From: Tetmemena sp. SeJ-2015
Lineage: Eukaryota > Ciliophora > Spirotrichea > Sporadotrichida > Oxytrichidae
Assembly: GCA_027382625.1 (NCBI GenBank)
Contig: JAJKFJ010021259.1
Span: forward strand, 1 to 64,000
Reading direction: 5' to 3'
DNA length: 64,000 nucleotides
The position numbers and the translations under genes are program-made. Within the stretch, counting starts at the first letter, position 1; every line of letters begins with the position of its first letter. The notes beneath the pieces are model-generated. The model had not been told where the DNA came from. It saw only the letters and a program-made list of their open reading frames with translations, and did no database searches. This document shows positions 7,441 through 33,700 of the stretch, piece by piece.

Positions 7441-7821
7441 TCAGTTGCCTCCCCAACCGCCTCCACCACCGCCGTTTCCACCACCGCCACCTCCCCAGCC
7501 ACCTCCGCCGCCGTTTCCGCCACCACCGCCTCCCCATCCTCCACCGCCGCCGCCACCTCCTCCGCATGGATTATTCCTATAGAGCCATCCTGCGATATAG
7601 CAGTGTCTGTTTTGGCAGTATTGGTCTGAGTACCAACAATCATCATCGTTTCTGCACCTATTAAACAGCTATAATAACTGTAAGCCACTTTTAAGTTATC
7701 ATTTTTTATTAGGACTTCTGCGATCTCTGCGGCCGCAGTAAGGACTCAGTCTTTTAGCCTCCACAGGCTATTAGAGCAGAAGCAAGCTTGCTATAGCAAG
7801 CAGCATATGCCACAACTTCAT
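7441..7821 (-). CDS. Secreted Cys-rich / Gly-rich protein
   Basis: Starts with a signal peptide (MKLWHMLLAIASLLLLQQPVEA) at ATG 7819-7821. An intron- or IES-like break lies about 7655-7740. It continues with a short Cys-rich block (RCRNDDDCW...QYCQNRHCYIAGW...NPC) and ends in a C-terminal tail of Gly runs punctuated by Trp and Asn (GGGGW.GGGGN.GGW) before TGA 7441-7443. The GC-rich tail is a GGN-type repeat. Likely extracellular, perhaps a cyst-wall or adhesive component; that is inference from composition only. Confidence 0.6.
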
Positions 7822-8091
7822 ATCTATTTTTTTTACTATCTAATCTCTCAGCTTGCTTTTATAGTCATCTGCAGTTACTATTTTTGCTGGTTAAGTATTC
7901 AAGATCCTAAATTTACTTATCATCCTTCTAATTTGAGCTCTTTTAATTCTTAAAATGGCTAGATCTTTAAGAAAAATTAAAATTAGAAACGAATAAAGAG
8001 TGGTCAGAATCTAGATTTCCTGATTATTTTGATCACTTTCTATTATCTTATCACTTAGTGATTGCATGTTAAATCCATAAAAATTTTAAAA

Positions 8092-8102
8092 AGAGTATTT
8101 TT
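8092..8102 (+). repeat. Pointer copy 1 of scrambled gene (AGAGTATTTTT)
   Basis: An 11-bp word at the 5' edge of the B-box/kelch segment. The same word, read on the minus strand, closes the RING segment at 10894-10904. Opposite orientation of the copies implies inversion during rearrangement. Confidence 0.85.
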
Positions 8103-10776
8103 GCAAAGCTTGCTCACTTGCAGTATGCGTGAAGTGCATTTATGATGAGCACAACGGCCACAACTTAGTCCAAATCGATGAGATGTGTAAGTAGTCTTGA
8201 TAAATGACGATATTTTTAAGTCTTTCTAATCTCTTCTTCTCTAAAATTATTAGAAAAAGTTTGGTGATAATAAGTATTTATAGCTAACACCATCAAGCAA
8301 AACATCACTGATCTTTCCAAGATGATAATGAATTCAAGGCGCCTCACAGATGATAATCTAAGACTGCTAGAGCAAGCCAGAGAAGAGCTCCATAAACTTC
8401 TGAACCTCAAATTATACTTTCGCTATTTTATTAACCAGCAGATTAAGAACATAGAGCAAGGATTTGCTGACTTAGCAAGAAGACTGGAGGAAAAGAAATA
8501 CGAAATAGTCGTTGAATTTGAAAAGTAAGACACCCATCATCCTACATTTTCTATTTAGTAAGCATTTATCTTTGTAGCAAGTACAAGCGAGAGGATCAAC
8601 GACTGATAACGATATAGAACAACTTGGAGCGGAATAAAGAGGAGATAGGCAACATAGAGAAGATTTTCATGGAGCTCATAGAATTCGTAGATCAGTCCTC
8701 AGACGCGCAAATCCTACTTAAAGTGTCAGATGTCACTTCCTTCCTCCACAAATCATTCATTTTTATAGAACTAACTCATTAGAGATAGTATAGTGCATTA
8801 TTTATTCACGGATCTGGAAAATATTACAAAGTTTTAGCTGCATGAGAAAAATGAGATCTACATTTAGCCAAGCTTTAGACCTCTATACCTCAACACTGCT
8901 AAGACGTTGGAGCTAGTCAAGAAATTTGAAATGACTTAAAATGCAAATGGGTATGTATGTTATATGTCTATTCTCAAATGATAGCGCCTGCAGCTGATCA
9001 GTTCAACGCATTTGAGTTGAAGTTTTTGAAGCAGCCAGATCCCAAAGAGCTAGAAATGCTCGCAAATTAAAATATGGGCCTCGGAAGCACTCTTCCCCAC
9101 GGAGGTACCAGCTCGCTCATGACTAAGCAGAAAGTCATGGAGACTTTCAGCGTCAGCCAACTTGGATAGAAAAACTCTTAGGCCTAACTCAATCAATCAA
9201 CTAAGTAAATATCTTCTTTCTATAAATCAAGCAAGTAAGGATGATGTATCTAAGGGCAAATCAGGAATCGATAGACAACCTTCTCTGGAATCTCAAGCCA
9301 GTGACAACTCTAAAAATACTCCTATGAACAGGCAGAGAGGCCGCTAAGGCTAGCAAAGAAGGACTATTATTAGAGATGAGATGTAAATGGGAGTTCCAGG
9401 TGGCTCTGGGTAAGGCACCCCTAGTAATGCAAATGCATCTCGAGCAGGTAAGCCACCTCTGGCAGTTAATGAAATCTTTAATGCTAGCGGATAAGTAATA
9501 AGGAGAAATCAAAATAATGTCACTGCTAGCGGATCTTCGTAATTGAACACATAGAGCTAAATGAAAGTTTTCTCTTGTCCTATTTTTAAAGCTCAGTGAT
9601 AGAGTAGATTAATAAGTATAACGAAATAAGCAGCTAACCCTTCTCATAAACAAACTTCAATCAGCAGAATGGTTTAATCACAGCAGCTCCATAGAGAAAA
9701 GCATAAGGGAAAGTCTATGATGCTTTTGACCAAGCGACTGGGAAAGCCCAGTCTAATCTCAAACTAGGAATGTCGAAGCTGTTTGACGGAAACATTCAAG
9801 ATGTGATTTAAACTTCATTGAAGATTATTTTTCTTCATGATCTACTTGTATGGACCTCGTATGGATGTCTATATTTTCAAAGTGGGTGAAGGAGAGTGGG
9901 AATGCAAGCAACTTGAGAAGAGCAGCGAGTACTAAGGAGGTATCAAGAGCTTCTCTCTTTGTAATGTTGGTAATCAACGTACCTTCATGACTGGAGGAGT
10001 TCTAATGTCAAACAACTCTCCTGTCTAACTTCATAATGCTCGTATATGCTTAATGGTTGAATGTCTCTAGTGTGTTCGAATTCAACATGTCCAATATGTT
10101 TGCAAGTCTGAGGAAGAAGAATATGTAACAGAAGAGATATGGTCATTCTTCGTGTGCCATTAAAGGAATAGCCTATGTTTTGGGCGGCTATGGACACAAT
10201 GACCAACCAGGTGAGCCTCCTCAAACTCTTGCTCACTGTGAGAAGTTCAACTCGATAAGCAATAATTGGGAGATAATTAGCGGGATGAATTAGTCAAGGG
10301 TGTATTTTGGGTGCTGCACCATAGACGAGCAGTATATATTTGTCTTCGGAGGAATCTAGGACTATCAGTTCCTCTCAAGCATTGAAAAGTACGACATCAT
10401 TACTGATACTTGGATTAGCTTGTACTTCAAATTGCCAACTCCAATTGCTAAGTTAAGCGCAATCACACACGATAAGAAGTAGATCCTAATTATGGGAGGC
10501 ATGACTGCTGACTATGAACCTCAAACTGGAGTATTCAACCTGGATATAAATGCTGCCAAGTTTATTAAAAAGGCCTCTATGAGGAATGAGCGACTACTCG
10601 ACTCAGGTACTTTCCTTTCCAAGGACTAACACATTTATGCTGTCAATGGGTGCTACAGTGATTTTACAAGTGAGAGATTTAGTATAGCAGCTAACAGATG
10701 GGAGTATATACCTAGCTATCAACTGGCTTCTAATCATAAACCAATTAATGACTATATTGGAGTCATTAAGAACTGA
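8092..10776 (+). CDS. Scrambled RING/B-box/coiled-coil/kelch gene, main segment
   Basis: Begins inside a B-box: EYFCKACSLAVCVKCIYDEHNGHNL has the second half of the C-x2-H...C-x2-C...C-x2-C...H...H zinc pattern. A coiled coil (LLEQAREELHKLL..., IEQGFADLARRLEEKKYE) follows, then a polar linker, then a kelch propeller ('RYGHSSCAIKGIAYVLGGYG', 'EQYIFVFGGIQDY', 'KKQILIMGGM') to TGA 10774-10776. Introns: 8187-8283, 8525-8577, 8951-8994, 9567-9602. Its 5' partner is on the opposite strand at 10894-11218, sharing the pointer AGAGTATTTTT. The architecture is TRIM/E3-ligase-like. A frame break by one T lies at 10068 and by one G at the 8950 junction. Confidence 0.85.
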
Positions 10777-10893
10777 TCACAAATAAGGATTTTCACTAAA
10801 CAAGTTGTATAATGGATTATAAACGTATGAAGTCTTAATTTCTAGTTCTCATTATAACATATGACATCATTTTTATTGGAAAGTATTATAATT

Positions 10894-10904
10894 AAAAATA
10901 CTCT
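10894..10904 (-). repeat. Pointer copy 2 of scrambled gene
   Basis: Complement of AAAAATACTCT, identical to 8092-8102. It lies at the end of coding homology of the RING segment; the following bases do not encode B-box residues. Confidence 0.85.
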
Positions 10905-11218
10905 ATGGGCTTGTCTGGATGCTTTGAACAAGGGAATATGTTAGATAGTTTGACCGTTCCAGGATTAACGAGGAGACTGAGCAGCTTGTAGTTGATTTTG
11001 AAGTCCTCAGCTTGGTGTTGATCCCCTATTAAAGTGGAGCAGGTAGGGCACTTCTTCTCGTCAGTGTCGCCTTCAATGATTTCTTAGATGCAGTATGAGC
11101 AGTATGTGTGCGCGCAATCTGGTATTATACAGGGCACTCGCTGCTCCTCGTCAAATGGCTCATCACAACGATCGCAGGTCACTACAACCCCAGCTCCTAT
11201 CATGTTTTCCTTTTGCAT
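10894..11218 (-). CDS. Scrambled RING/B-box/kelch gene, inverted 5' segment
   Basis: ATG 11216-11218, then a RING finger: CDRC...C(II)PDCAHTYCSYC...KKCPTC, i.e. C-x2-C ... C-x-H-x2-C-x2-C ... C-x2-C spacing. The frame then reaches PCSKHPDKPIEYF, the C-x2-H first half of a B-box, at the pointer AGAGTATTTTT (10894-10904). Beyond the pointer the sequence becomes AT-rich with no further zinc ligands (open to TGA 10793-10795). Joined at the pointer to 8103 on the plus strand, the reading frame continues precisely with the missing B-box cysteines. It would supply the E3 catalytic module of the kelch protein. Confidence 0.85.
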
Positions 11219-11412
11219 TTTATTTGTCGCTTATTCTTGTTATATTTCTGTTTATTTTTCTTATTTCGCATTCCCTATTTTTCAAGAATACTTTCTTACT
11301 TACTGTGAGTGCGATAATGCAAATTGCTTTTACGAATTGATGGATCAAATAAATCAATCACAGTTGCTTCATTAAGTTAATATTATAAATATTAGAGGAG
11401 GTATAATTAAGT

Positions 11413-12340
11413 ATGTTGGCCAAGCAAGTTTTGAGACACGCCCAGAGCAGACTCGTCGCTCCCAGAGCTTCCTTCGTGAACGCTGCCTAGAGTTCTCACC
11501 CAGAGAAACGCAGTCTTCGCCATGAACCAAGTCTCCGTCAGACTCTTCGCTAATGCTGCTGCAATTGAGAAGAGCGTGCAGAAGTTAGGCAAGGCCCTTG
11601 ACAAGGAGATCAAGTACGAGAATGAGAACTACACCCAGCTCGAGGATATCGAGACCTTCCTCAACGAGTCAGGATTCACCTTCCAGGAGACCGACGCAAG
11701 CACTCTCCTCAAGCTCGTCAAGAAGGTTGGCGACAAGACCATCGAGGTCCACTTCGAGGCAAGGTAAGTTCAATCATGAAGCTTTTCATAAATGGGCATG
11801 CGAAGTTCAGCCCTGAGAGTGCCCCAACTCGCTGGTAAATAGGTTGTGGTTGTGGCTGCCTAGAACAGTTTGTCGATTCCTGTTCCTATTGTGTGGTGAT
11901 TAATTAATTTATTATAATAGACAGCCACTCCCCGAGGATGAGGAGCAGGAGCAGCAGAACGGAGAAGAGCAGGAGGAGACCCCCTCAGAGAACTATTGCG
12001 ACTTCACCGTCTACCTCGTGGACGAGGGAGCCAACAAGGGACTCGTAGTTGAGGCCACCACCATGGACACCTGAGATCTCCTACAATACCGTCAACGTGT
12101 CCCAGGACATCAAGACTGACATGAAGGTGCACAGATTCGAGAGACAGATGAAGGGCTACACCTGGTCCCGAGTTCACCACCCTCGACGAGAGAATCCAGA
12201 CCGCCCTCTCTCCGAGTACCTCGATGGTTTCGGAGTGAATGAGCACCTGGCCGCCTTTCATCGAGTGCATGTCCCTCGACAAGGACCAGAGACTCTACAT
12301 GAACTGGCTCACCGAGCTCAAGAGCTTCGTCTCCAAGTGA
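11413..12340 (+). CDS. Mitochondrial acidic matrix protein p32 / MAM33-like
   Basis: Starts MLAKQVLRHAQSRLVAPRA, a basic amphipathic mitochondrial presequence. The body has the p32/C1QBP/MAM33 layout: N-terminal helix, beta segments ('DKTIEVHFEAR', 'CDFTVYLVDEG') with an acidic loop between (PEDEEQEQQNGEEQEE), and C-terminal helices ending 'YMNWLTELKSFVSK' before TGA 12338-12340. A GT...AG intron spans about 11764-11921. Third codon positions are G/C-rich and codon use strongly biased, suggesting high expression. Family frame is kept only if one T is skipped at 11488, 12072, 12163 and about 12256; a further break lies near 12210. Confidence 0.8.
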
Positions 12341-24986: not shown

Positions 24987-27900
24987 ATGGAAGAGAGAGA
25001 AAGAAATTCAAATGGAAGAGTGTATGAAATTATAAATTGGACAAATTCAAAAATGAGCAGCTATAAACTCAGAGCAGGCAACTCTAATCTCAAGCCTACT
25101 CTCTCCATCAACTAGCTTCATAATACATTTTATATTTAATTCAAATTTTCATGGAAGTCAAAACAAGATGATATAACAAAAGTCAGTTAGAATTCAGAAC
25201 TAAAGTGAGATCTCAGACATATCCTAAGATCAGCTAATATAAATTCCCCCAAATACTTCCAACGTGAAGGTGGTGTGCAGGATAAGACAGCCCAAGTTTG
25301 CAGAAAATTTATCCTCTTCAGTTAGTTCTCATTTCAAGTCAAGCCACGGTCATTCTGGAAATAGCAGCATCTCATTTTTAAAATGTAGAAAAATTATTAA
25401 TCACAAGGAATTATTAAAGCCTGAAAAGTACATAAGCTGGCCTCGCTGACATCAGAAGAATCAGTTCCTCTCGATAGGACTCACTCACTCCGAGCAGTAA
25501 GTTCCCCATCAATAATATACCAGTCCGGAAGACTTTGTTCCTAGTTTTACACCATAAAAACATCTTGATAATTTGTGTTTGATCCCATCTATTTCTTAAT
25601 TAATCAATCACAGAGTAGTACGTGTCTCTAAGGGTCAAGCCGAGGGAAGGCAGCAGTAGCCACAGAACTCTCAACAGATCATCAAGTCAGAAGGCCGCCT
25701 CAAGTTTTAGGACCAACCAATCTTATTTATAAAATAAAAATTATTCTCTAATCAAGAGAGAGGTCCGGAAGCTTAAGTGCTAGAAGGCATGAAAGCACAA
25801 CACTCTCTGGAAACGCTTAAGGAAAAATATCGAGTGACAGACTATACTCTATCTTCACTACGAGAGAAAGAGGTACCTTAGTTGTCTGCAATTAGAAAGG
25901 CCTAGAGGGAAAATTCATCAACAACTCTATCATTCAGTGAAAAAATTAAAAAAAACTTTGAGCAAGAATAATAGAAATGGATCATTATTTTGTTGCTTTT
26001 TGTGGGTTTTACCTTTTTAAATTTAGATATGTGATTGATCAGCACGATCTCAAATATCTGTCGTAATTTTATTTATTCATAATAGAATTTTCTAGTTCTG
26101 ACAACTCTACTGCTCCAGTTTTTACCTTCAACTTTGATGGTGTGTTTAACGAGTCTCTGAAGCAAGAGAAATTCTACGCACAAACTGTGAGACCCACAGT
26201 TCAGAATTTCATTGAAGGTGAAAACGGTTGCGTGATCTTGTTTGGGCCAACACAAGGCGGCAAGACATACACCTTAAAAGGAAAAGCAGGAATAGAGAGA
26301 GGGCTACTTCCCAGAGCAGTTGAGGATATCTTCAACATAGTCAGGGACAGTTAAGCTTACCAGGACGATAGTTGTGAATATGATATCATTCATAATAGGT
26401 TCAATATATACATTTTTATCAGCTAAATGGGATCTGGGAATAAGGAATACCAAAACGAGAACGTATTCACTAGAAATCATGCAAATACAGGAGAGTGGCC
26501 AGTTTCTTACCCTAATGGAACTAAAGAGAAGATGTTTCTGAAGATCTCGGTCTATTAAATCTTCGCAGATAAGATCCTAGATCTCTTAGTTAATAAGAAT
26601 AATCGAAACACTAACAGGCAAGTTTTCATTGATCATCTGATCGATTAGCAAAGTGAAGAAGTGGTTTCTAAGATAAGAAATCTGAACGAGAGAGTGCTCC
26701 TCTCTCTGGAGGATTTTTATAATGTCCTTCAAGAGGCATATAAGAACAGAAGAATTGAAAGTGTCTCAACTTAATAAAGCGACTTGAAGAAGAAGACACA
26801 TCTCGTCATCAATTTAACTTTGATAAAGAAAAATCAGATGCACAACTTGGAGGAAATTTCAACTCTGAACTTTGTTGAGCTGAGTGGGAGTGAGCAGGCA
26901 GTTTCAGAGGAGAAGTTTTTCCAAGATTCTCAAGTCAAGCAGTTTGTGACAAAGAGTTTTAACGGCCTCTCTTCAACGATACTAAAATCAGCTCTGAAGA
27001 AAAAACAAGCATACTCTTAACTAAATGACAGCGATACAGCTATCGTAGGATGCTTAAGAAAGAGTCTTACTTCACATTCAAACATACTTCTGATCTGCAA
27101 TGTGAATCCAAGTCCTTCTCATTATGAGCATTCGCTACCAGCAGTTAAATTTTGTGCTCGTATTAGGGAGACTATTGTAAAGAAGCTAGAGGTCTAAAGT
27201 AGTAAAGTGAGAAGCCTAAAAGCTAGCCAAAGAAGCTAACGATAAATCCCCGATTCAAATAACCAAGCTTCTTCCAATTAAAACTCAAATAAACAGTTGA
27301 AGAACGACTTCAGTCTTGGCTAATTAAATCCTTCTTATCAGCTGGAGAGTTAACAAGCTAACAACAGCATTACAGAGATATTAAAGACTGCTCAGGAAAG
27401 CATTCAAATATTAAAGTAAGAACTAGCTCAGAAGATGGTTGAAAAAAATAGAGCAACAAACTAACAAGAGAACGATAGATGGGTTCTTGAGAAACTAGAG
27501 AGTGTTCAAGTCATATTTGATATATTGAAACAAGAAGGTCATTAGATTGAGGAACTATAGAGACATCTGCTCTTTTAAGAACTAAAGTAAGATATTTCAT
27601 AGTCTAATCTCCTATAGTTTTTTGAGAGAGTAAATTTCAAAATACAAGTCCTTCAGCTTATCTTCGCCTTATACTTAATAGTAACCTTCAATTCTTCAGA
27701 CTCCCTAGCATCTACATCACTTACAAAATTCTTACATCTAGTAATCTCAGAGCCCCTAGATCATCCCAGGTAATAAACTGCTGTTCTCAAGACAAGCAGG
27801 TATCCAAGATCAGATGTTTTCAAGTCAAAGTACTTACAATCCTTATCAGCAGTCTACTTTTAATTAAGCCCAGGCAAAGAACTCATAATAAACCTAGCAG

Positions 27901-30774
27901 AACTAGCACGGTCAATTTTTAAGGTCCACATCATAGAATAGTTTAAGAGATAACGAAAACTGCTTCAATCCTTTGATATCAGTGCAGGATTCAAATGAAA
28001 AGGGAGGACGCCCTCTTAGGTATGCGAATTACGTTGGTGAAAGCCAGGAACATGTGCCTTTCAAGTCTATATAACAGCACATTTACACTGACACTGAGTA
28101 ATCTTCAGCCTAGCAAGTCTTGCATGCAGGAGGACAGAGACCAATCAATTAGGCTGGCACTTATTCTAGCCAGTATCCCTCTTCTTTGCAGTCTAACTAG
28201 AAGCATTAGATAAATGAATTCCATACAGAAATCGGCAATGGAGGATACTTGCAAAGCAAGAATACTCAGCTGGCAGCACACTAAAATGACCCTGCCTGGA
28301 TGGAAAATGATCTCCTTAATATTTTTCATATACACTACTTTGCATGCTTAATAGATTGCATCCGTTGGCAAATAGATCACTCTCTCCTAAGAAAAATAGC
28401 ATCTCTGAACAGCCTTCTCCATACATAGAAAACCAAACTTAGAGGTAGCCATCAGGATCTTCAAGACCCTCAGCTGGCTTTAGATAATAGCCAGCTTCAT
28501 CTGGAGTTAAAAGCTCAGGCTTATAAAATTCAAACCCTACTTTCAATTCGACTTAGACTTACCAGCAGCAGACAAGCCATCCAGAAACAACAACAGTCAC
28601 CGCGACATTTGACTCTCAAAACACTCAGATACAATTCACTCAGCCTATGACTATAGTCGACCAATTAGCTAAGTCAAAGCTATTCTCACCAATAAAGAAC
28701 CCATTTGAAACTCTGCTCAATCAAACGAAAGTTAAGCAACAGATCCACACCTTAGCCAGCAAAGTCAGCGAGAGAAATATACCAGACTATGAACTCAAGC
28801 TTAATACGATAAAGGAAATGGGAGTTTATTCGAGTGACTAGGATGCTCTCTCTGACATGATTCGCTTGTTCAGACTCAACGACATGAATATTTTTGCTTA
28901 TTATTTTTTGATAATTAACATAGAGGGCCTAAAGCTGCGACTAACATTAGGTGTTTGAGAGAGAAAGAATCCATTGAGTCTTTGACCAGGGAAACAATAG
29001 CTACAGTGAACGATCAAAACGAGCAGATTCAAGCTAGAGATTAGATCATTATCGAGCAGGACTAGATTATTGAGTTAGGGGGGAAGTTAGAATTCACCAG
29101 ACTGTAGACTCCCTTGAGAATTATTCTACTATTTTTATTATTAGTTGTATTGAAGTAGCATAAGGAAAGAGAGAACAACACACTCTCTCAATCGTTAGTC
29201 TGTCGGTGAGCATTTGAAAGACCTACAAGGACTTATAAAATTGGTTTCTGAAGAGAAGGAGCAAATGATGCGAGCACAGGGCATCCTAGAGGCTGAGAAC
29301 AAGCAACTTGCCAAAGCTAGAGAAGAGATCGAACAGAGGATGGCAGCAGTTGCTGAGGAGAATCACAAGCTCCAGAGTAATTACTCAATTCTTAAGGAAC
29401 ATGAGATCAATTGATAAAAAAGTGAGATAGAAATTTCATTTTGCTCTTTTATTGATTAAATGTAATTAAAGACGCTGAGGATAAGAAGAACAGAGGAGTC
29501 AGTTTCTTTGAGAGCAAGATGAGGGAGATGGCTCTAGAGCAAAGCAGTTCCATTCTCAGCAATTACTTAAACTTTTACTTATGCCCATTTTAATGCAATA
29601 AGAGCAGGAACAGTTGATTTTCAAGATGAAAGAGGAATTGAAGAAACAGCAGCTTGAGAACTAGAAGCTGAGTTAGGATTTGCAGTTCATGGCGGAGCAG
29701 TTGAACTAATACACCAATCGCATAGAAGGCAGAAGAAGAAGCCAAGACTGAACTCCAAAAGCAATAAAAAAAATCCCGATTTTCCTTTTTCAATGGCATT
29801 AGGATTTGTTGAATGTGAGTAGTACGAGAAAGAGTACTAGAGATTGGAGGAGCAGCGGGACCGACTTGAGTAGCAGTACTCACTGCAAAAGAAGGACGTA
29901 GAGCAACTTCACCAATTGGTGGAAAAGATGGAGCAGCAGATCCAGCATGAGCAACAGCAAACCCAAGAGCAGATTGTCTTAAGAGAGTCTAAGGAAAGAG
30001 AAGGCATAGCAATTGAGGGAAGGGGAAACAAGCTCTAGCTAAGTTTATAGAACAGAAGGACTTAAAAGATAGACCATAGTTAGCGCAGAGAGAATCACTC
30101 TAAGAAGAGCTGAGCAAGTTGAGAAAGGTGTATGACGAATTGGACAAGTAGATGACTCTGTTTAAGGCCAAAAGGAGTATGACAAGGTGGGCGTGCTCAA
30201 GAAGTCAGCCGAGCTTGAGGCCAGGTTGAAGTACCTGCTCGCTGACAACGAGACTTTGAACGATAAGGTGAAACACCACGACGCTAAGTACTCCGAAGTC
30301 CTGAGGGAGAAGCAAGGCCCTAGAGCAGCAGCTGCTCGAAGCACAAGCTGAACTGGATTTCTTGAGAACTGCTAATGAGCAGCATTTGGATTAAGTAGAC
30401 GCCAAGTTTGAAGACATCAATAAGAACTCAGCAAACTAAGGAATGAAAACGGGCAACTAAAGGAAAAGGAGAAACTAATGAAGAGGAGGCAGAAGGAGCT
30501 GGAGGGGGAGTAAGAGGAGATGAGTCAGAGATTGACTAACGAGAAGTAAAGAGTGACTGAGGTGAATAAGCACGTGGTGGAGATGGAGACTGAAATAAGG
30601 AGGCTGATGGAGGAGAGAGAAAGAGAAGCCAAGGAATTAGAGTTCAGGAATAGGCAAGAACAGAGAAACAAAGATGAGAGCAAGGGCGTCATCCTAGGTG
30701 ACATCCACAATAAACTCATTGAATACAAATACTCAAAATATAAGAAGAGCCTCTCTTCATTTCATGGTTTATGA
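24987..30774 (+). CDS. Divergent kinesin with long coiled-coil tail
   Basis: ATG 24987 (MEERERNS). The first motor strand 'NVKVVCRIRQPKFAE' lies at 25260. A large polar insertion follows, then after an IES (25968-26078) the motor resumes: 'FTFNFDGVFNESLKQ', P-loop 'GPTQGGKT' (about 26248), 'FLKISVYQIF', switch II-like 'NFVELSGSEQ' and 'NPSPSHYEHSLPAVKFCARIRETI', ending about 27200. Switch I is degenerate (..DLKKKTH instead of SSRSH). A Q/N/S-rich linker and about 600 residues of coiled coil (e.g. 'EEKEQMMRAQGILEAENKQLAKAREEIEQR') run to TGA 30772-30774. Several frame breaks mark IESs. In-frame TGA at 25447 is unexplained. Could comprise two genes. Confidence 0.65.
25968..26078 (+). other. IES in kinesin motor, pointer ATAATAGAA
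   Basis: Nine-base repeats at 25968-25976 and 26079-26087 flank 111 bp of AT-rich sequence encoding only a spurious hydrophobic tail and TGA. Motor homology resumes directly after; a one-base mismatch in frame remains. Confidence 0.65.
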
Positions 30775-30789
30775 TTAGGAATTACAAGG

Positions 30790-33700
30790 ATGAAAAGAAG
30801 CAGCAGAAGAGTGGATTCGTAATAGCAACCACAAATGCCTTCAGCAGCCAGAACACAAGTGGCTATTTCTGATAACAAATAGTCAACGTCTTATAAGTCA
30901 AATAGTTTAAACCAATTATAGCTAACAAGATAGTCTGGATTAAGTTCGAGAGAATCTATTTTGAAATACTTTAAAAGAGTTCCTCCTCATGGTAAGTTAT
31001 AAGAGTTTGAATTTAAATTGCTGCAAGATTTATAAATTCTCAAAATGGAACAATATTCCTAAGCAAACAACGATGATGTTGATGAATCTTTGAACTACTC
31101 TATAACAACAGGTTCAACAAGCAAGAGGAAATCCAAGTGCAGGAAACTTATGAAGCGTGTTCTCAAGGCTTGGTGAAAGTGCACTCGCAAGATGAAGCAT
31201 GATCGCATCCTGTTCTTCAGAATAAGCAACTTCATAGTGAAGCGACTCACCTCCAAAGCCTACAGATCTCTCAAGCTAAATTACGTTCAAAATAAACTTG
31301 TGGATCACTACTACCAGCATGCAATATAATGAAATGAATTGCTCACTATATTAAAGCGTAATTTGAAGAGACTAAAGTATGTGGCAGTCTCCAACTGGCA
31401 CAGATTCGTAGTTTTCCAGAAGTAGTTCAGATTGGTGCTCACTAAGTTCACACTCAACTTGGATAAACACTTCAGCACTGTGAAGTTGCAAGTGCTGAAA
31501 GAAAGCTTTGAAGAACTTCACTAGCATACTAATGCCAAGGGAGTGAGAGAGAGATTGAAGATGAGGTTAGCCAATTATTGGGCAAGGAGGGTGAAGGCTA
31601 AAGTGTTCAGAGCTATGAGGGAAAATAACGCTAACAAAGAGGAGGAAAGGGAGATTTAAACTTATGATTGTCATTCTATTTGCATGTTTGTTAGATGCAG
31701 CTAAAGTGTATGATATTTGAGAATCAAAGGCTAAAGAGAGAGGCTTTTGGAGAGATGATAAAATTCGTGATTTTCCATAAACGTAGAAGGAGAGTGCTCT
31801 TCAGAACTTACAAGTAACTTTCTAAGAGATACCTTGCAAAGGCACTGTTTTCACTCTATTTATACAGGCAAGATCAATACATCAAGAGATAGAACTCTGA
31901 ATTCATTAGAAGCTACTATATCCAAAGATAAAAAAATCTGCTACAAAGACAAATTGTTCAAGAATGGAGAGATACCATAGCTCAATCATAGGATAAAGCC
32001 AAATTCTTAGAAGTAGTTCTAGATCGATAGTTATTGAAAAATGGATTTCATTCAATCTAAGCTTACTCCATAATTTAAGCAGAAAACTTTTTTCTTTTCT
32101 ATAAATCTTTAAATACTCTGGCCAGCTTCAAGATATCAATGAACATATGATGAGTAGAAGATTGTTCAACTTCCTTAAGCAATACAAATAAATCCAAGAC
32201 CAGAAGAGACAATAGAGAATTACTACGACAGCAACTTATCAACGTAATCTTTTATCAAGAGGTCTTTAGGAGTTGAAGAGAGGAACTTTTAAAATTTTAA
32301 GATTATTATAATCTACTTGCTTTTAGAAAGAGTGCTCATTAGCATTTGGCAACACTCTCTCTTCATTATAGAAACACTATAGCTTAAAGAAAGCTCTTTT
32401 CTATATTGATAGACATGCCAGATTAAAGGATATGATGCTGATAGTCGACTAAAAGCAGACTATGCTTGAGTTAAAATACTCCTTCCACTAATTAGTGCTA
32501 AACTCAAGGTTGAAGGTGTTTACAGATGCGCTTGCTTTCAGAATGATTCTTGGAAAGTTCTTTGGTTGTTGGAAGGATTCTGCTTTGGAAGATAAGCGGA
32601 TAATTAAACTTATGGCTAGAGCGGCAAAGCATTATAACCGGAAGCTGAAATCAAGATAAAGAAAATACTAATGAAATAAATTGAGTATTATAACTCATAT
32701 GCATATCTTATGTTTACTTCTTGAATTTGAAGAGAAAAATATGCCCTGGTCTTTTCATTCTTCCCTAGAGGAGACTAATTCTCCTCTCCAAAGTTCTAGA
32801 AGCTTTTAAGCGACTCCGAGTATAAGGCAGAGTCTTGAAATTCAGGATAAGCAAAGTGCAAGCAAATAAGTAGATAGCAACCAAGAACGAGTATTTCAAG
32901 ACATGGCTGAATAAAGCTAGAAACTAGAGCAATCTTCGCAAATAGGAAGAAAATATGGATTAGTTGTCTATTGACTTCTAAAGGAGGAGATTTTTAATAA
33001 GATCGCTTAAGGCTTGGAAAAAATACTCTTATCAAAGAAGAGTCTTGAAGTATCTGAAGCACAGAGAGAGTTTAAAAATCCTTTCTTAATCTCTAAGGAG
33101 AATGAAAGAGCTGTATATTTCCTGCTAAACTGAAAAGCTGAGAGAAAGGAGGGGCATGATGGTGTACAACCAATTCCTCAAGAAGAAAAAATACTCAATC
33201 TTTCTTAATTTTAGAAAATACTCAATCTTTCTTAATTTTAGAAAGCACTATTCAGTTTGGCTCTTAATTCTAAAAGCAAGAGATAATAAGAAGGATTAAG
33301 GATCAAAGCACTGAATTAGTACAAATATCTTCTAGCCAAAAAGAGTCTCCTAAGTCTCTTCAAGAATACTCAATATCAAAAATACAAACGCTCTCTCATT
33401 TATACTTTATTATAGATATGGTTTTATCTTCATCGACTCTGCTGTGTAAGAAAACCACACCCTCCTGATGAGATAAGTGTTCACTAAGTTACTGCAAGTA
33501 GGCTTCTACTGGGCTACAATCCACCAGCGATTTGGGATAAGCTCCAGATAGAGTAGGATTTACCTTGGCCTGAAGTATGGAATGCGCTGGCGTGCCAAAA
33601 CACTCATTATCAAGCATTTACGGATGCAAAATAGTTAGAAGAGTAAAACTTCTAAAATTGCAAGTGTAAACTTGCTTAAACAAGTTGAAAGAAGAGTTAC

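Follow-up and report, generated by a model that had tools for sequence, protein, structure and literature searches.

A RING/B-box/kelch gene lies in two blocks on opposite strands of the DNA analysed here, a window of 64,000 nucleotides at the start of a 150,115-bp contig (C2338) in an assembly of 146 Mb and 5,213 contigs, and the locus is very probably a scrambled spirotrich (hypotrich-like) micronuclear gene with one inverted junction, joined during macronuclear development. Inverted MDSs being a classic oddity of spirotrich ciliates, the focal gene is by itself one more case. Its value lies in the pair that it forms with a paralogue on another contig, C2133: an inversion junction common to two ancient paralogues, with different pointers and with contiguous relatives, all in one genome. 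Such a pair offers a polarisable example for the origin and possible loss of scrambled genes, a question addressable wherever the germline and the somatic genome of a species are both available.

A B-box divided between two strands

The first block (MDS 1), inverted and located at 10894-11218 on the minus strand, holds the start codon, a RING finger and the opening half of a B-box, with the Cys and His ligands of that half, and is stop-free when translated with table 6 from 11218 to 10894 (MQKENM...CSKHPDKPIEYF). The RING finger matches zf-C3HC4 at 24.5 bits in this half alone and at 21.5 bits within the joined piece (cut-off 21), and it is followed, as a first-pass annotation of this DNA had described, by a B-box broken midway; resemblance to P0001, a homologue with 77% identity over 67% of the query, and to other homologues stops at the pointer. 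The second block (MDS 2), at 8092-10776 on the plus strand, comprises the remainder of the B-box, then a coiled-coil-like stretch, a linker, kelch repeats (10072-10773, plus strand, by Pfam profile matches) and a TGA stop at 10774-10776. It opens with EYFCKACSLAVCVKCIYDEHNGH and, also as described, starts in mid-B-box, the zf-B_box profile being matched from position 15 only (27.8 bits, 15-42 of 42, cut-off 24.1). The stop codon is separated from the inverted MDS 1 by an AT-rich spacer (10777-10893), which, by analogy with the scrambled actin I treated in PMC2394655, would contain an IES as well as the 3′ side of MDS 2 where a telomere would be added.

At the break, the 11-bp pointer AGAGTATTTTT forms the 5′ end of MDS 2 (8092-8102, plus strand) and the 3′ end of MDS 1 (10894-10904, minus strand), the latter interval being the reverse complement of the former, so that the coordinates of both segments and the sequence shared between them in opposite orientation, as first annotated, are correct to the base. 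Joining the halves with one copy of the pointer gives CSKHPDKPIEYFCKACSLAVCVKCIYDEHNGH, in frame and with the ligands complete, and raises the zf-B_box match from the 27.8 bits of the plus half to 41.9 bits (5-42 of 42), which bears out the prediction that the junction restores the B-box. RING, B-box and kelch all score above their Pfam cut-offs, in that order, on the RING half, the joined piece and the kelch ORF (9991-10776; Kelch_1, 73.6 bits, cut-off 20.1), while the TRIM_CC profile reaches 15.5 bits on the coiled-coil-like stretch against a cut-off of 30. Domain order and Pfam matches are like those of TRIM-like RING/B-box/coiled-coil proteins with kelch repeats, here in a ciliate family and with a putative coiled coil; judging by its RING finger, the encoded protein is probably an E3 ubiquitin ligase. 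Inverted 11-mer pairs as such are not rare, since the interval 8001-11300 contains four distinct ones, of which one alone lies at the homology break. When plus and minus registers of the window were drawn at random, an exact run of at least 11 bases covered the register in 27 of 3,000,000 (9e-6). A third copy of AAAAATACTCT occurs elsewhere in the window, at 33019.

The protein search returned 16 homologues at E ≤0.001, from public contigs (the longest 0.9-3.2 kb) that carry no assignment to a nucleus and are uninformative on their own germline order. A motif check found all B-box ligands carried across the join in 14 of the 16 and, in addition, a RING by the pattern used in eight of the 16; the two exceptions are P0015, which begins after the join, and P0014, which crosses it and has Asp at one ligand position. 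Within the assembly, two paralogues, on C4897 and C1856, run through the join without a break; they share 98% identity with one another and 52% with the joined protein. A further copy (L045, C3113:20001-28000) has a B-box unbroken at the focal codon and a RING upstream on the same strand. The copies on C2133, C4897 and C1856 all have RING, B-box and kelch, with the B-box before the kelch repeats on one strand. A complete, near-identical gene elsewhere in the assembly, the kind of finding that the first-pass annotation had named as making the two pieces unrelated fragments, was sought and not found, the best complete paralogues being the two of 52% identity, and a search of the assembly with the RING-side DNA gave one match, the locus itself, with neither a second allele nor a joined copy. 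Viral contigs scanned for relatives gave three pattern matches, none of them confirmed.

These comparisons support the view that the RING half and the B-box/kelch half are one gene. Stop codons alone are compatible with two short genes, because an in-frame ATG or a run-on stop can be assigned to each half, and the locus might accordingly be read as two independent convergent genes, one encoding a short RING protein and the other a B-box/kelch protein, or as one gene completed by trans-splicing. That reading is scarcely credible, given that the break falls among the zinc ligands of a B-box, at the same codon in two paralogues and with shared DNA on either side, and that both sides stand in one polypeptide in 14 of the 16 homologues. 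As a single scrambled gene, MDS 1 (RING) and MDS 2 (B-box/kelch) would be joined by recombination between the inverted 11-bp pointers, with one copy kept and the net effect that 8103-10893 is inverted relative to MDS 1. Two conventional IESs would be excised at direct-repeat pointers, a template RNA may guide the joining, and telomere sites would be added at the ends of the somatic molecule, predicted to be a chromosome of some 3 kb encoding a RING/B-box/coiled-coil/kelch (TRIM-like) protein.

The first description of the plus-strand segment holds for its position and fails for its continuity as a single uninterrupted segment, for it contains two introns, two probable conventional IESs and about five frame breaks. 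The introns, both on the plus strand, occupy 8187-8283 (97 bp, GTAAGT...TAG) and, from a reading of the sequence, 8525-8577 (53 bp). A probable conventional IES of 30 bp including one pointer (AAC), at 8403-8432, separates LLN from QQ as an in-frame insert absent from homologues, and a conventional IES of 49 bp including one pointer (ATTCA), at 8755-8803, separates HKSF from TDLE where C2133 and C1856 read HKSFTDLD, both again on the plus strand; omitting the two gives a homologous reading, with HKSFTDLE once 8755-8803 is removed. Similar direct-repeat inserts were seen by eye in C2133 (AATATTC; AATGC) and C1856 (TAATT; ATTCAT). The frame breaks, also placed by eye, fall in the linker/kelch part of MDS 2 (~8953, 9165, 9583, 9830 and 10050), so that the restored frame is that at the pointer junction, with breaks further along; together with an in-frame TGA in the C2133 paralogue, they count against a scrambled functional gene. 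A MAM33/p32-type mitochondrial gene adjoins the locus at 11413-12338, head to head with the RING segment, and also has several apparent frame breaks, whose resemblance to the focal ones suggests a noisy assembly consensus.

A paralogue inverted at the same codon

The C2133 paralogue has its B-box/coiled-coil/kelch part on the plus strand and its RING on the minus strand, with some 2.8 kb between the pointer copies, as also in the window. The pointer there is an inverted 12-mer, ATTGAATATTTT, at L042:3152 and 5923, which differs from the focal AGAGTATTTTT in sequence and yet joins the same codons (LIEYF and CKTC on either side), the reading passing in frame from ...CPKHPHKLIEYF to CKTCSNSVCVKCIYDDHNGH. 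Further inverted 12-mers in this 4.5-kb stretch amount to two palindromes and one longer pair. In hand-picked ungapped stretches, a choice that biases pN low, the focal and C2133 copies differ by pN 0.24 and pS 0.85 in the RING half (48 codons) and by pN 0.21 and pS 0.75 in the plus half (113 codons). Because the protein is thus conserved at saturated synonymous sites, these sequence comparisons show selection to have maintained each half in both inverted genes, and the split to be old. Across the B-box family, mixed-strand arrangement occurs in two (C2338 and C2133) of the nine contigs with at least two pieces, some of the other seven looking like allele pairs.

Conservation of this kind bears directly on whether the focal locus might be a pseudogene, killed by a fixed germline inversion and left without unscrambling. 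The linker/kelch frame breaks speak for such a history, as does the TGA of C2133 (L042:4028-4030, a position occupied by Gln in C3113, Lys in C1856 and Ala in the focal gene), which may be either a real stop or an error; against them stand the compared stretches of both halves in both paralogues, protein-conserved at saturated synonymous distance, the frame kept across both pointers and the open RING half, and a dead gene is accordingly given only the faintest likelihood.

An artefact, in which a chimeric long read or an amplification switch inverted an ordinary gene at microhomology, has to be weighed in the same light. Amplification is known to produce inverted chimeras with short microhomology, and the assembly looks noisy, with frame breaks in MAM33 as in the linker/kelch part; even so, a single contig contains both ends of the inversion, and C2133 repeats that inversion at the identical codon with a pointer of its own. 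A family-B DNA polymerase gene, which served as a positive control, has pieces on opposite strands of C4161 and likewise of C1943. In the former (L072, C4161:12001-16800) the halves have an inverted 16-mer, CTAACAGTATGTATGG, where LTANSMYG meets CLGF on the other strand; the second locus is at G000:C1943:138675-142951. The split gene is likely that for polymerase alpha, known to be scrambled in hypotrichs. Among clusters with at least two pieces in 6 kb, mixed-strand cases made up two of eight for the polymerase, none of 41 for kinesin (from 122 of 303 candidates scored) and none of 19 for actin, and in-gene inversions are therefore not a general assembly defect. An artefact is, on these grounds, highly improbable; the same inversion in C2133, with another pointer and a protein conserved at saturated synonymous sites, strongly disfavours an artefact and a dead gene alike. 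The proposal of a scrambled micronuclear gene with an inverted MDS, made at first from the window's own letters, is supported in turn by the contiguous homologues, the germline-like contig, the polymerase control, the kinesin and actin background and the C2133 paralogue.

Actin had been tried as a scrambled positive control and was set aside in favour of the polymerase when it gave no mixed-strand cluster; the 'permuted' flag on one actin contig (C2821) is most likely due to tandem genes merged by the 6-kb rule. Kinesin motor pieces at G000:C1665:3918-5644 are permuted on one strand (positions 259-327 before 24-243), possibly a translocated MDS.

One inversion or two

Most likely, the inversion happened once, before the two paralogous lineages split. 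In a four-row tree of genome rows alone, the focal and C2133 copies pair (97/98) against the contiguous C1856 and C3113. In a tree of 20 rows, P0007, P0011, P0014 and P0016 cluster with the C2133 copy (99/98), and the focal copy belongs to an 11-member group that also includes P0001 and nine more rows (99/99); a 100/99 branch divides these 16 rows from the contiguous C1856 and C3113, which stand with P0012 and P0013. Support around the focal row is weak (59/34) in a 25-row tree that includes pieces from L046, L047, L049, L050 and L051, omitted from the 20-row tree as partial or long-branched. The tree is midpoint-rooted and the branch of C3113 is long. The inverted label sits on two rows only, and shuffled labels do equally well in 180 of 500 trials.

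Alternatively, the locus may be scrambled as proposed and the break in C2133 independent, the inversion having happened twice because the conserved IEYFC codons offer the same microhomology. C3113, though unbroken, has the very 11-mer AGAGTATTTTT at that site, codons favour such repeats, and the tree holds two inverted rows only; the inverted copies nevertheless group together against the contiguous ones (97/98, 100/99), and the first intron, after ...DEM in the focal copy and ...EEM in C2133, has the same site in both and is absent from C1856. As the C2133-type homologues (P0007 and its like) are without sign of that intron, its common position is not clean support for a single origin. We regard two inversions as unlikely and hold, with moderate confidence, to one ancestral germline inversion that was duplicated and whose codon was retained in two paralogues while synonymous sites became saturated, pointers drifted and other paralogues remained contiguous. 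If so, the scrambled state, once made, would be effectively irreversible in the germline, an inherited character of gene structure like the position of an intron.

Germline-like character and comparison with known scrambled genes

The window appears germline-like, by its 150-kb contig and the direct-repeat-flanked inserts within the gene, and the assembly looks spirotrich-like in its code (TAA and TAG read as Q, TGA as stop), its 20-bp C4A4 telomere and its inserts flanked by short direct repeats. The telomere pattern C4A4C4A4C4 (20 bp) has 67 matches in the assembly, of which nine lie exactly at contig bases 1-20 and at least three exactly at the last 20 bases, the latter count being limited to contigs whose length was known, and others are internal; the reversed pattern gave identical numbers, which is uninformative since the pattern reads alike backwards. 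On contig C298 an ATG at base 95 opens an 84-codon frame, as expected near the end of a macronuclear chromosome. GC content in 2-kb steps of the window is 31-42%, far below the 52% given for the germline assembly of Strombidium cf. sulcatum (PMC10901763).

Both inverted MDSs (PMC9797194; PMC2394655) and longer pointers at scrambled junctions (PMC9797194) are already in print. Pointers described for actin I of Stylonychia and Oxytricha, and for one further gene, measure 3-19 bp, and conventional IESs there are removed, one exception apart, ahead of inversion and translocation (PMC2394655); compared with the scrambled actin I of Stylonychia lemnae and Oxytricha trifallax treated there, the present case has one scrambled junction and two blocks in a RING/B-box/kelch gene, read from germline-like sequence. 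Between Oxytricha and Tetmemena orthologues, pointer positions are reported to be conserved and their sequences changed, and scrambled genes to belong to larger orthogroups and to tend to have more paralogues (PMC9797194). The inverted pair is similar in that the position of the pointer is conserved and its sequence different, and unlike that case, which concerns orthologues between species, in that it concerns anciently duplicated paralogues in one genome and an inversion. Among the scrambled chromosomes described for S. cf. sulcatum and Halteria grandinella, inversion is common in the former, as here, and accounts for 69.4% of its scrambled nanochromosomes (PMC10901763). A search of the open-licence literature returned no report of the focal gene, nor of an inversion junction common to ancient paralogues in one genome.

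Two other stretches of the window deserve mention. A coding-like stretch at 28352-28537 lies on the minus strand next to a kinesin gene (motor at 26097-27170) that is on the plus strand, as are its coiled-coil-like ORFs; the stretch has no Pfam match and could be a nested segment of another gene. At 7441-7698, a minus-strand ORF has a Cys-rich start and a long tail rich in Gly and Trp-Gly.
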